Below, in pieces: positions 58,581 to 63,604 of a DNA stretch of 64,000 nt. Where the stretch lies: assembly GCF_004216575.1 (NCBI RefSeq), contig NZ_SGWW01000002.1, positions 310,001 through 374,000 on the forward strand. The letters are read 5' to 3'. The DNA comes from Microcella putealis (GTDB taxonomy: Bacteria; Actinomycetota; Actinomycetes; Actinomycetales; Microbacteriaceae). How positions within the stretch are numbered: the stretch's first letter is position 1; the number at the start of each line of letters is the position of its first letter. Made by a program: the position numbers and the translations under genes. The notes under the pieces are model-generated. The model was not told the DNA's origin and made no database searches. It saw only the letters and a list, made by a program, of their open reading frames with translations.

Positions 58581-59108
58581 CTAGGCGGTGTGCGACACCC
58601 CCATCAACACCGCGCGGCCGAGGATGTGCTCGCGCAAGGTGAACCCGAGGAAGGCCGGTGTCGCATCGTCCGGAACGTCAAGGGACTCGACGGCGAGCGC
58701 TGACAGCACGAAGAAGTACCGGTGCTCACCGTGGCCCGATGGCGGCGCGGCCCCCAAGAATCGTGCGAGACGCAACTCGTTCGGCAGCGTGCGTGCCCCG
58801 TTGGGAAGGAGGGCGGCGTCGGGATCGCCCGCATTCTGGGCCAGCTCCGTCGCTGTACCCGGGATGTTGTACACGGCCCAGTGCCAGAACCCACTTCCCG
58901 TGGGGGCGTCGGGGTCGAACACGGTGAGAGCGAAGCTGCGGGTGCCATCCGGGGCGCCCGACCACTGGAGTGCGGGGGACCGGTCTTCGCCGCCGGCACC
59001 CGCGATGCCAGAGCGCGCCCACTGCGGCAGCGCCTCGCCGTCAGAAAAATCGGGACTCTCGAGCGTGAAGAGCGGCACCTCAGGAAGCTTCCAGAACGGG
59101 TCATTCAT
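58581..59108 (-). CDS. YbhB/YbcL-type PEBP-family protein
   Basis: A 175-residue protein of the phosphatidylethanolamine-binding family (Raf-kinase-inhibitor-like). The ligand-site motifs are SPALQWSGAPDGTRSFALTV, FDPDAPTGSGFWHWAVYNIP and HRYFFVLSALAVESLDV. The biological role in bacteria is unknown. The ATG at 59108 follows AAGGAGA; upstream codons of the long ORF belong to the intergenic region. It is divergent from the rhodopsin gene. Confidence 0.88.
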   Translation of the reverse strand: MNDPFWKLPEVPLFTLESPDFSDGEALPQWARSGIAGAGGEDRSPALQWSGAPDGTRSFALTVFDPDAPTGSGFWHWAVYNIPGTATELAQNAGDPDAALLPNGARTLPNELRLARFLGAAPPSGHGEHRYFFVLSALAVESLDVPDDATPAFLGFTLREHILGRAVLMGVSHTA

Positions 59109-59317
59109 GCGTGTCTCCTTGTCGTCGCACCCCAGTGTTGACGACCCGGCTGACCTCCCAGTTCGAGAACGGTCGACACACATCTTGTGCAAGGCGACCT
59201 CCCAGCCTATGAGCGCACCGTGAGAGCACTTCGCCCGGCCGGCTCCCGATCGCATGTCCGAGACGAGGATCGAATCCCCGATCGTGCGCGGCATCCCGCG
59301 AACGATTCCAGATCCAA

Positions 59318-60073
59318 ATGAGCATCATGGAATTCCAGATCGTCCAAGCATTCTTCATGCTGGGCTTCGTCGCGATGGCGGCGGGCGCCCTGTGGTTCTT
59401 CATGGAACGCAACGACTTGAAGCCGGAGCTGCGTCCGGTCGCGACGTACGCGACCGTTATCGCCTTCGTCGCCGCGATTCTGTACTACGTCATGAAGGAT
59501 GTCGTGCAGTTCCCCCTCGGCGAGATCGGGGTCGAGGCGATCCGTAACACGGTCGAGCTGCGCTACATCGACTGGCTGATCACGACCCCGCTGCTGCTCA
59601 TCGAGTTCGGCATCATCGTGGCGCTTGCCGGTGCGGCGAAGAAGGGCCTCATAACGCGCATCGTGATCGCTGACCTCATCATGATCGTCACCGGTTACCT
59701 CGGCGAGACGAGCGAGCCCGGCGCCCCCGGCACCGTCGTTCTCTTCGTGATTTCGTCGCTGGCGTGGTTCTACATCATCTACGAGATCTTCCGCATCGAC
59801 ATCTCGAACGGCCCGGCCCACGCCCAGCGTGCGGTCAAGATCATGCGCCTGTTTGTCGTCATCGGTTGGGCCATCTACCCGATCGCCACGGCGATCGAGC
59901 AGTTCCTGCAGATCGGCGGAGCCGACATTGCGCTCGCCGTCAGCATCGCCGCGTGCATCTACGTTGTCGCCGACGTCGTGAACAAGGTGGGCTTCGGTAT
60001 TGTCGCGATCCAGGCCGCCAAGGTCTCGTCGGGCATCCACGAGGTCGCCCCCTCGAGCGTCGACGCTAAGTAA
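59318..60073 (+). CDS. Microbial rhodopsin, proton-pump type (D-T-E) without the helix-B histidine
   Basis: A 251-residue seven-helix retinal protein. Helix C reads LRYIDWLITTPLLLIEF: Arg82, counter-ion Asp85, Thr89, and proton-donor Glu96, the D-T-E set of outward proton pumps. Leu93 is the spectral-tuning site and predicts green absorption. Helix G carries Asp219 and the retinal Lys223 (ADVVNKVGFG). Overall it resembles Exiguobacterium rhodopsin and proteorhodopsin. In those, a helix-B His pairs with the Asp; here the place is Leu55 (FVAAILYYVMKD). No retinal-synthesis gene lies in the window. No good ribosome site is seen; ATG 59327 is an alternative start. A strong terminator follows. Confidence 0.93.
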   Translation: MSIMEFQIVQAFFMLGFVAMAAGALWFFMERNDLKPELRPVATYATVIAFVAAILYYVMKDVVQFPLGEIGVEAIRNTVELRYIDWLITTPLLLIEFGIIVALAGAAKKGLITRIVIADLIMIVTGYLGETSEPGAPGTVVLFVISSLAWFYIIYEIFRIDISNGPAHAQRAVKIMRLFVVIGWAIYPIATAIEQFLQIGGADIALAVSIAACIYVVADVVNKVGFGIVAIQAAKVSSGIHEVAPSSVDAK

Positions 60074-60090
60074 CACCAGCACTCACCAGC

Positions 60091-60129
60091 GCGGGGCGGG
60101 CCAACAGGCTCGCCCCGCTGCTGCTTTTT
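60091..60129 (+). terminator. Rho-independent terminator after rhodopsin
   Basis: A 12-bp stem (60091-60102, 60107-60118) with one G-T wobble and an AACA loop, then TGCTGC and five T. It shows that the rhodopsin gene is a single transcription unit. Confidence 0.85.
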
Positions 60130-60243: not shown

Positions 60244-61266
60244 ATGACGGCACCCTCCGGCAGCCCCCGGGCATCCGCCGGGGCGTTCGCCGCGCCGACA
60301 TCTGCGTCGAGCGCCCCCAGCGTGTCGGCGGCGAGCGGCCCGGTGCCCACCCTGCGACGCATCGGCACGAGCGCGCTGGCGGTGTACCCCATCGCCCTGA
60401 GCGGTACGGTGTTCGGCTGGACCACTGACGGGCCCACCACCACGGCCATCCTCGACCGATTTGCCGAGCTTGGAGGCTCGTTTATCGACACCGCCGATTC
60501 GTACGCGGGGGGCCGCAGTGAAATCATGATCGGCAATTGGATGCGCGCCCGCGGCAACCGCGACCAGGTCACGATCGCGACGAAGATCGGCAAGAGCGCC
60601 GACAATCCCGGCCTCTCGGCACGCGCGGTCGAGCGCGCCGTGGACGCCTCCCTCCAGCGGCTGCGCGTGAGCCACATCGACCTGCTGTATTTGCACATCG
60701 ACGACGAGACGGTGCCCTACGACGAGACGCTGCTCGCCGTCGACGAGTTGATTCGCGATGGTCGCGTTCGGTACTTCGGCGGCAGCCACCACACGGGCAA
60801 CCGCCTGCTAGAGGCGCGTATCGCGTCGGGGCAGCTCGGGGTGGCCCCCATGGTCGCCGTGCAAAATCACTACAACCTCGTGCACCGCAGCGAATACGAG
60901 GGTGACCTCGCGCGCATCGCGGCGCAGCTCGAGCTCGGGGTCATGCCGCGCTTCGCGCTCGCCGGCGGATTCCTCACCGGCAAGTACCGCTCGCGCGCCG
61001 ACCTCGAACGCTTCCGCCGAGGCGGAGACGCAGCCCCGCACTTGAGTCGGCACGGCTTGCGCCTGCTGCACACGATGGACCGAATCGCCAACGACACCGG
61101 CACGAGTGTCACGACGGTCGGCCTGTCGTGGCTCTTGTCGCGGCCGCGCATTGTCGCGCCGGTCGTGTCGGTGAGCTCGGCAGATCAGCTCGACGACGTC
61201 ATGGCTGCGCCGGTGACGTCACTCGGTCGGCACGAGCTGACCGAACTCGATCGCGTCAGCGCGTAG
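60244..61266 (+). CDS. Aldo/keto reductase
   Basis: A 340-residue NADPH-dependent oxidoreductase of the AKR fold. Seen are ELGGSFIDTADSYAGGRSE (catalytic Asp and Tyr), IATKIGK (Lys), IDLLYLHIDD (the usual catalytic-tetrad His), and the cofactor region TTVGLSWLLSRPRIVAPVVS. A 35-residue Ser/Ala-rich N-terminal extension precedes the barrel. The substrate is unknown. Its last 11 bases overlap the end of the convergent TetR gene. Confidence 0.87.
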   Translation: MTAPSGSPRASAGAFAAPTSASSAPSVSAASGPVPTLRRIGTSALAVYPIALSGTVFGWTTDGPTTTAILDRFAELGGSFIDTADSYAGGRSEIMIGNWMRARGNRDQVTIATKIGKSADNPGLSARAVERAVDASLQRLRVSHIDLLYLHIDDETVPYDETLLAVDELIRDGRVRYFGGSHHTGNRLLEARIASGQLGVAPMVAVQNHYNLVHRSEYEGDLARIAAQLELGVMPRFALAGGFLTGKYRSRADLERFRRGGDAAPHLSRHGLRLLHTMDRIANDTGTSVTTVGLSWLLSRPRIVAPVVSVSSADQLDDVMAAPVTSLGRHELTELDRVSA

Positions 61267-62692: not shown

Positions 62693-63604
62693 TCAGCGAC
62701 CGCGGTCGGCGCGTTCGGACGCAAGGCGATCGAGGCGCTGGAGCGTGTAGGCCATGCTCGATGACTGGGTGCCGAGCAGCCGCCGGGTGATGCCGAGCCC
62801 GATTCGGGTGGCGGTGATCGCGGGCCACCAGGGTCGACGCAGCCCCAGCAGTTTTCGGTATTCGGCCGGAAGCGAGGCAACCGCGCCAGCGAAGAAGATG
62901 CGGCACACCGGCCCGGCGCCCGCGCCGAGCGGCGGGTTCTTGAGCCAGCGCACGGCCGCGTCAACGCGGTCGTCGCGACGCAATACGGGTTTGTAGGAGG
63001 CGATGGCGGCGTGAAGCTCCGCGCGGCTGCGGGGAGGGTTGTGCATGCCCATGAGCTCGCCGGCAATCGCCCACTCGGCGACATAGGCGTCGGCGCCGCC
63101 GGGAATCGGGCCGCCCCAGGTCTCGTGGCTGCCGAGGAACGCGTCGGCGAAGACGCAGTGCACCCACCCGATGAGCTCGGCATCCTCGGCGCTGTACTCG
63201 ACGGTCTCTCCCTCGGCGGTGCGGTAGTCACCGCGCACCTTGCCGTGCAGTCGGGTGATCTGCTGGCAGACCTCTGTTGCGCGCGCCCGGTCGGCGAATG
63301 TTGTCGTCAAGACCCAGCGGACAGTTCCCGCGAGGCGGCCGAGCGGGTCCTCACGGTAGCGCGAGTGGTCGTGCACTCCGGCCATCGCCCCCGGGTGCAG
63401 GGTTTGCATGAGCAGCGCGCGAATGCCCGCGACCACGGTGGGAATGCCGTTGTGTACTTCCCAGACCGCCGATCCCGGTCCGAAAAAGCCGGCGTCCTCG
63501 CCCTCGGCGAGTTGCCGCACCCAGGCGGGCTGGCCATTCGCATCGCCCGAGAAGATGGTGAGGATTCGAGCGCGCATGCGGGTGGCGACAGCGAGGCGGG
63601 GCAT
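62693..63604 (-). CDS. MpaB/latex-clearing-type oxygenase (DUF2236)
   Basis: A 303-residue protein of the oxygenase MpaB family (DUF2236). Characteristic are GSAVWEVHNGIPTVVAGIRA, LLMQTLHPGAMAGVHDHSRY, AEDAELIGWVHCVFADAFLG and LMGMHNPPRSRAEL, with His residues likely to hold a haem-like cofactor as in rubber oxygenase. The substrate in this organism is unknown. It converges on the phosphatase gene, 18 bases away. ATG 63577 is an alternative start. Confidence 0.85.
   Translation of the reverse strand: MPRLAVATRMRARILTIFSGDANGQPAWVRQLAEGEDAGFFGPGSAVWEVHNGIPTVVAGIRALLMQTLHPGAMAGVHDHSRYREDPLGRLAGTVRWVLTTTFADRARATEVCQQITRLHGKVRGDYRTAEGETVEYSAEDAELIGWVHCVFADAFLGSHETWGGPIPGGADAYVAEWAIAGELMGMHNPPRSRAELHAAIASYKPVLRRDDRVDAAVRWLKNPPLGAGAGPVCRIFFAGAVASLPAEYRKLLGLRRPWWPAITATRIGLGITRRLLGTQSSSMAYTLQRLDRLASERADRGR

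Follow-up and report, generated by a model that had tools for sequence, protein, structure and literature searches.

The pair formed by an aspartate and a histidine of helix B is the described, conserved proton acceptor of proteorhodopsins, yet exchanging this histidine for methionine raises the pKa of the acceptor in one pump and lowers it in another. The rhodopsin gene of Microcella putealis encodes a leucine at the place of the histidine, which raises the question whether this is an accident of one strain or the property of a lineage, and how such a protein would handle its protons. The window (the whole stretch of DNA analysed, 64,000 nucleotides) holds the gene in the following setting:

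59318 to 60073, forward strand: rhodopsin open reading frame, 251 amino acids; its residue numbering is used throughout
59327 to 60073, forward strand: likelier coding sequence, 248 amino acids (residue numbers minus 3), start placed from those of relatives
59316 to 59322, forward strand: altered ribosome-binding site AAATGAG, which creates ATG 59318; the closest relative (L052) has AAAGGAG
60091 to 60118, forward strand: intrinsic-terminator-like hairpin of 12 pairs (11 of them G-C), followed by a T-rich tail
58581 to 59108, reverse strand: phosphatidylethanolamine-binding-like protein gene (PF01161), divergent upstream neighbour, start inferred
60244 to 61266, forward strand: aldo/keto reductase gene (PF00248), downstream neighbour

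The coordinates, frame and length given for the open reading frame in the initial annotation were correct. Its 251-residue product matches the Pfam family Bac_rhodopsin (PF01036) with 152 bits and an E value of 2.2e-44, and the profile of this family matches one place in the 2.54 Mb M. putealis genome. An AlphaFold2 model based on an input alignment of 46 sequences has seven helices and a mean pLDDT of 93.3; with the Schiff base lysine in helix G and the family profile, these are the marks of a type-1 microbial rhodopsin. Translation probably begins at ATG 59327, three codons past ATG 59318, giving 248 residues, because relatives start there (eight of the nine compared have AAGGAG and then GTG at this place, the ninth AAAGGAA and then ATG) and because ATG 59318 sits inside the altered ribosome-binding site. 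Since the upstream neighbour is divergent and a terminator-like hairpin lies downstream, it was reasonable to call the gene monocistronic with its own terminator; terminator-like sites in the region number two, against 1.2 +/- 1.1 in shuffled sequences, and the hairpin at 60091 to 60118 is the longer one. No match to a sigma-70-type promoter for the gene was found in a sequence scan of the region.

The residue in question is the following:

59480 to 59482, forward strand: Leu55 (codon CTG), at the position of His57 in Exiguobacterium sibiricum rhodopsin (ESR), His75 in proteorhodopsin (PR) and Met56 in bacteriorhodopsin (BR)

In two alignments made with different programs, ESR His57 aligns to Leu55 and helix B is free of gaps. 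The residue of the E. sibiricum locus (L117) in this column is indeed number 57, and the column also contains the histidine of the proteorhodopsin 4jq6 and Met56 of BR. We also considered a histidine elsewhere in helix B, named at the outset as what would overturn the assignment; besides the ungapped helix B, there is no histidine in residues 1-167. The only two histidines, 168 and 241, are both distant from the chromophore, as had been claimed; in the model, the first lies where the sixth helix begins and the second in the C-terminal tail. A sequencing error behind Leu55 is unlikely, because the closest intact relative found, from a separate assembly and with 91% identity, also has leucine.

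The initial annotation treated the variant as a feature of one protein, and this view had to be given up. Using two sequence patterns, we scanned a collection of species genomes and found 188 relatives, of which the best 80 were kept, so that the sample leans to the query. Within these best 80 of 188, 51 relatives group with the window protein in a single clade of 52 rows, which has a support of 100/100 and a branch length of 1.05, and all 51 lack the histidine. Position 55 holds Met in 36, Leu in 13 (window included) and Phe in three of the 52 rows, i.e. it is nonpolar throughout, so the His-paired acceptor of proteorhodopsin/xanthorhodopsin-type pumps is missing in the window protein and its clade alike. 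The clade is mostly from Microbacteriaceae, with members named Microcella, Yonghaparkia, Alpinimonas, Pontimonas, Rhodoluna, Aurantimicrobium, Microbacterium, Auritidibacter and Cellulomonadaceae or labelled as Micrococcales or Actinomycetota assemblies. A second sample comprised 41 rows after removal of a duplicate (L001), a broken copy (L022 and L023) and a fragment (L024), one row (L002) being the window itself; the two samples are not independent, because 32 of its 40 other rows match proteins of the pattern-scan set.

Could Leu55 nevertheless be peculiar to one strain, or a sign of decay there, and thus meaningless? A relative of the same genus with a broken opsin copy speaks for this idea, but position 55 is nonpolar in 51/51 other clade loci and in 40/40 of the overlapping genome-sample proteins. 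Compared pairwise with L052, the window gene has a dN of 0.064 and a dS of 0.751, and by this estimate it is under purifying selection. Given the low dN/dS and the contradicting clade-wide pattern, the probability of a private change is close to nil; together with the tree, the clade-wide absence of histidine rules out a one-strain oddity.

Within the genus Microcella, an opsin match was found in 21 of 26 genomes (one of them a broken copy) and a match to beta-carotene 15,15'-dioxygenase in 15 of 26 (two of them partial). M. putealis itself carries the retinal-making genes, the dioxygenase gene adjoining that for lycopene cyclase. In a very close relative, the single-contig Microcella genome G003, the opsin (L151, G003:C1:1090700-1092000) is broken, with an internal stretch missing and the frame shifted. 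Its dioxygenase (L153, G003:C1:252000-260000) is broken as well, and within the 8 kb examined no more than the portion starting near residue 148 was found; by their sequences, it looks as if the light system had decayed as a whole. Microcella alkaliphila AC4r (G002, the source of L052) has an intact opsin with 91% identity to the window protein, but the beta-carotene dioxygenase profile found no match in its genome, so this strain may need retinal from outside or another enzyme.

The histidine is absent in several lineages, as read from their sequences, and the clade is the large one among those sampled. In the other 29 of the best 80 of 188 loci, histidine is present in 21 (20 with Lys96, one with Glu96) and absent in eight, which have Asn (four), Met (three) or Ile (one). 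These eight are loci from Comamonadaceae, Polaromonas and Brachymonas assemblies (L124, L126, L127, L131), with Met or Ile and a Lys donor, and from Verrucomicrobiota, Acidobacteriota and an Alphaproteobacterial assembly (L128, L129, L123, L122), with Asn and a donor Lys or Val; a strict coupling between loss of the histidine and change of the donor is thereby ruled out. Nineteen other rhodopsins of Microbacteriaceae, hand-chosen from a longer list and 24-34% identical, have His (12), Ser (six) or Ala (one) at this position. Those with Ser or Ala (L143, L144, L146-L150) form a separate branch of the same bacterial family, and one of them (L147) has Glu in place of Asp85. Among other Actinomycetota, matches were found in 37 of 396 genomes (the window's own included), and the nine other matches that were read all have the histidine, at 27-30% identity. 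No clade members were seen on plasmids, where 11 records match, all below 60% identity and those listed at 24-33%.

The other residues that bear on function are given below, with counts over the 52 clade rows:

59561 to 59563, forward strand: Arg82, in 52/52
59570 to 59572, forward strand: Asp85, putative proton acceptor and counter-ion by comparison with BR and ESR, in 52/52
59582 to 59584, forward strand: Thr89, in 52/52
59603 to 59605, forward strand: Glu96, proton donor position (Lys in ESR), Glu in 50/52 and Ser in 2/52
59972 to 59974, forward strand: Asp219 (BR Asp212), in 52/52
59984 to 59986, forward strand: Lys223, retinal Schiff base lysine, in 52/52
59357 to 59359, forward strand: Met14, where ESR-type rhodopsins and 4jq6 have Trp; Met in 45, Ile in six, Val in one
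59744 to 59746, forward strand: Phe143, at BR Trp138, Phe in 52/52
59888 to 59890, forward strand: Thr191, at BR Trp189 (Tyr in ESR and PR), Thr in 51/52
59948 to 59953, forward strand: Ala211-Ala212 (ESR Arg213-Glu214, BR Glu204-Thr205), Ala-Ala in 52/52

Asp85, Thr89, Glu96 and Lys223 are present as first described, as are Arg82 and Asp219; the helix-C set, Arg82 and the equivalent of Asp212 are those of a DTE/DTD-type pump. The donor is not strictly kept, since two clade rows have Ser96. These rows, L058 and L059 (in all likelihood identical to L020 and L021), combine the DTS set with the missing histidine. Ser or Gly at the donor position marks the mirror proteorhodopsins (DTG/DTS) described in PMC10154332; the window protein differs from them by its Glu96.

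By structure, ESR (PDB 4hyj) is the best match (Z 30.5, rmsd 1.7 over 227 residues, 45% identity); it is also ranked first by Foldseek and is the best match by sequence. Both proteins share Asp85 and Thr89, Trp86 and the NKVGFG motif around the Schiff base lysine, and they belong to neighbouring groups in the tree. Clade and ESR-like rows join with a support of 95/87, which is moderate in a tree where long branches meet elsewhere, and the clade forms a separate branch of length 1.05, not placed inside the ESR-like group. The window protein has Leu in place of ESR His57, Glu in place of Lys96, Met in place of Trp (position 14), Thr in place of Tyr (position 191) and Ala-Ala in place of Arg213-Glu214. 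The combination of His57 with Lys96 seen in the ESR group (His with Lys in 20 loci) is replaced in the clade by Leu, Met or Phe with Glu or Ser. In total, 16 columns with at least 90% agreement both within the clade and within 20 ESR-type rows set the two apart; in one of these columns ESR has a gap. Those bearing on mechanism are Lys96 to Glu, Arg213-Glu214 to Ala-Ala (Arg-Glu in 20/20 ESR-type rows) and Tyr to Thr191, and position 14 (Trp in 19/20 ESR-type rows, one row gapped) falls just under the threshold.

We take position 14 to be equivalent to what is presumably Trp34 of proteorhodopsin. In blue proteorhodopsin, Trp34 is reported to bond to the helix-B histidine of the neighbouring protomer (PMC6656774). 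A strict coupling of Trp14 and His55 does not hold, as 12 actinorhodopsin-type rows combine Ser14 with His55 and one row Trp14 with Asn55. Position 191 presumably belongs to the retinal pocket, by analogy with BR; it is aromatic in the other groups compared, and the Thr of the clade should leave room near the retinal ring. As for proton release, ESR Glu214 is the homologue of BR Glu204 according to PMC6677831. A BR-like release group Glu194/Glu204 was looked for and not found, the window protein having Phe196 and Ala211 at these places. Acidic residues at positions 194 and 195 are not universal either, with Glu or Gln in the clade and Gln-Gln in 12 of its 52 rows.

Proteorhodopsins, including the marine actinobacterial MAR/MacR (4jq6, 7avo), resemble the window protein in the DTE set, the fold and the lack of a BR-type pair of release glutamates, but have the His-Asp acceptor pair. 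As this pair is called fully conserved in the proteorhodopsin family (PMC12002130), the clade may lie outside what the authors of that paper count as proteorhodopsins. Actinorhodopsin/xanthorhodopsin-like pumps of Microbacteriaceae, a type assigned here from residues and tree, share the DTE set and the host family. At position 143, the 19 other Microbacteriaceae rhodopsins have Gly (18) or Ala (one), and we assume that Gly at the BR Trp138 position forms the opening for an antenna carotenoid. A role of this Gly in the carotenoid antenna is named in PMC9728251. Phe143 in 52/52 rows argues against a xanthorhodopsin-type carotenoid antenna, and together with the tree it rules out membership in the antenna type (xanthorhodopsin/actinorhodopsin). 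Bacteriorhodopsin of Halobacterium has Met56 at position 55, as has most of the clade; it differs in its Glu194/Glu204 pair, and the window protein is set apart by its Glu donor and its place beside ESR.

BR pumps with Met at position 55, and the absence of histidine is therefore nothing exotic for a proton pump. By analogy with characterised pumps, we consider it probable that the window protein is a light-driven outward proton pump with Asp85 alone as acceptor, Glu96 as donor and release past Arg82; pumping, its direction, the lone acceptor and the pH range are all inferred in this way. Light would isomerise the retinal on Lys223, and the Schiff base proton would pass to Asp85 alone, in a BR-like manner, and not to an Asp-His pair. 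Glu96 would then return a proton to the Schiff base from the cytoplasmic side, and release would run past Arg82 with neither of the BR release glutamates. Lacking the histidine, formation of the M intermediate would not have to wait for its deprotonation and should occur at neutral pH, Asp85 on its own would fix a single acid limit, and protomers would lose the contact that the histidine mediates. What the data show directly are the predicted fold, the key residues, the lack of the histidine across the clade, the conserved gene and its shared gene order, and the retinal-making genes of the genome. In favour of this reading, the H87M variant of Gloeobacter rhodopsin (GR) also appears to keep its pump ability, as a monomer (PMC6656774). 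The broken opsin copy of the very close relative G003 counts against this reading.

A function as sensor or weak pump, not as energy converter, seems improbable to us. It draws on a claim cited in the Pontimonas genome paper (PMC6106888), according to which the Exiguobacterium namesake pumps poorly and serves as a light sensor; the same paper itself argues for photoheterotrophy in Pontimonas, and ESR is called proton-pumping in PMC10138546. Moreover, no transducer was found among the nine neighbouring proteins scanned, and the DTE set, Arg82 and the retinal genes are kept.

The initial annotation expected the protein to behave differently, for example with a shifted pKa. That it differs from His-bearing pumps is a fair assumption and a shifted pKa is plausible, but the direction of the shift cannot be derived from the sequence, because published His-to-Met mutants disagree. 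Host names such as alkaliphila and alkalica suggest, as we presume, alkaline habitats, and the loss of histidine could have raised the pKa of Asp85 to about 6-7, leaving an outward pump that works only at neutral to alkaline pH. In ESR, the nearest characterised relative, H57M lifts the acceptor pKa from below 2 to 6.3 (PMC10743670), so that a BR-like low value is not the sole outcome of losing the histidine, and a paper on E17R argues that the histidine keeps the aspartate deprotonated (PMC4871484). On the other hand, the acceptor pKa of GR falls to about 3.7-4 in H87M (PMC6656774), and Asp85 of BR, with its Met56, titrates near 2.6 (table in PMC7541481). For PRs, PMC12002130 describes that the histidine raises the pKa to about 7 and that its change to Met restores function at low pH. 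ESR thus predicts the opposite of GR and PR; a further 16 columns set the clade apart from ESR, so that it may also have compensated. Overall, we regard a raised pKa as rather unlikely. The loss could also matter less than supposed, as the histidine of MAR does not interact with the aspartate in the ground state at pumping pH (PMC12002130).

Extending the lone-acceptor pump to the whole clade, we suggest only tentatively, at somewhat less than even chances, that it is an unrecognised pump subfamily in which the His-Asp acceptor, the Trp in contact across protomers and the release glutamate of ESR are all missing. Such pumps would have arrived by convergence at a BR-like lone aspartate acceptor without the BR release group, and would work over a wider, more acidic pH range with no His-dependent coupling in the oligomer. 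A low-pKa or BR-like bacterial pump would not be new, because the BR-type pump RxR and the cyanorhodopsin N2098R have counter-ion pKa values of 1.3 and below 2, respectively. What appears new is a His-less clade on the proteorhodopsin/ESR side. Rhodopsins of Pontimonas, Yonghaparkia, acMicro-4, Microcella and Rhodoluna are named in PMC6106888 and PMC12422013, and loci of those names fall in the clade by the tree (L055, L070 and the Pontimonas, Microcella and Rhodoluna loci). A word search of the main texts of both papers gave no hit for His57, His75, counterion or proton acceptor, and the single use of "histidine" in each text refers to two-component kinases. The initial annotation would have been undone by a good number of published close homologues with Leu; close homologues that lack the histidine are indeed numerous, but none was found described for this feature, and no such description of the clade was recognised in the open-licence literature searched. 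PMC6106888 places the Pontimonas protein in an Exiguobacterium subcluster and assigns a different rhodopsin to Microcella, which conflicts with our data, in which the Microcella loci fall in the clade.

The clade shows that not all bacterial relatives of proteorhodopsin and ESR have the His-Asp pair. Naturally His-less, with Met, Leu or Phe at this position and some of its hosts in culture, it allows the role of the histidine to be told apart from the harm that a single mutation causes, and it offers a natural test of what the helix-B histidine does.

Finally, the gene order around the opsin is partly shared. The phosphatidylethanolamine-binding-like gene also adjoins the opsin in L052-L055 and L057, and the aldo/keto reductase gene also lies 3' of it in several Microcella loci. 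The order PNPase, rhodopsin and histidine-phosphatase-family gene is common to Microcella and Pontimonas loci, in line with the vertical descent of the rhodopsin that PMC6106888 argues for Pontimonas, Yonghaparkia and acMicro-4. Beyond the histidine-phosphatase-family gene, the window encodes at 62693 to 63604 a match to the mpaB/rubber oxygenase catalytic domain family (PF09995).
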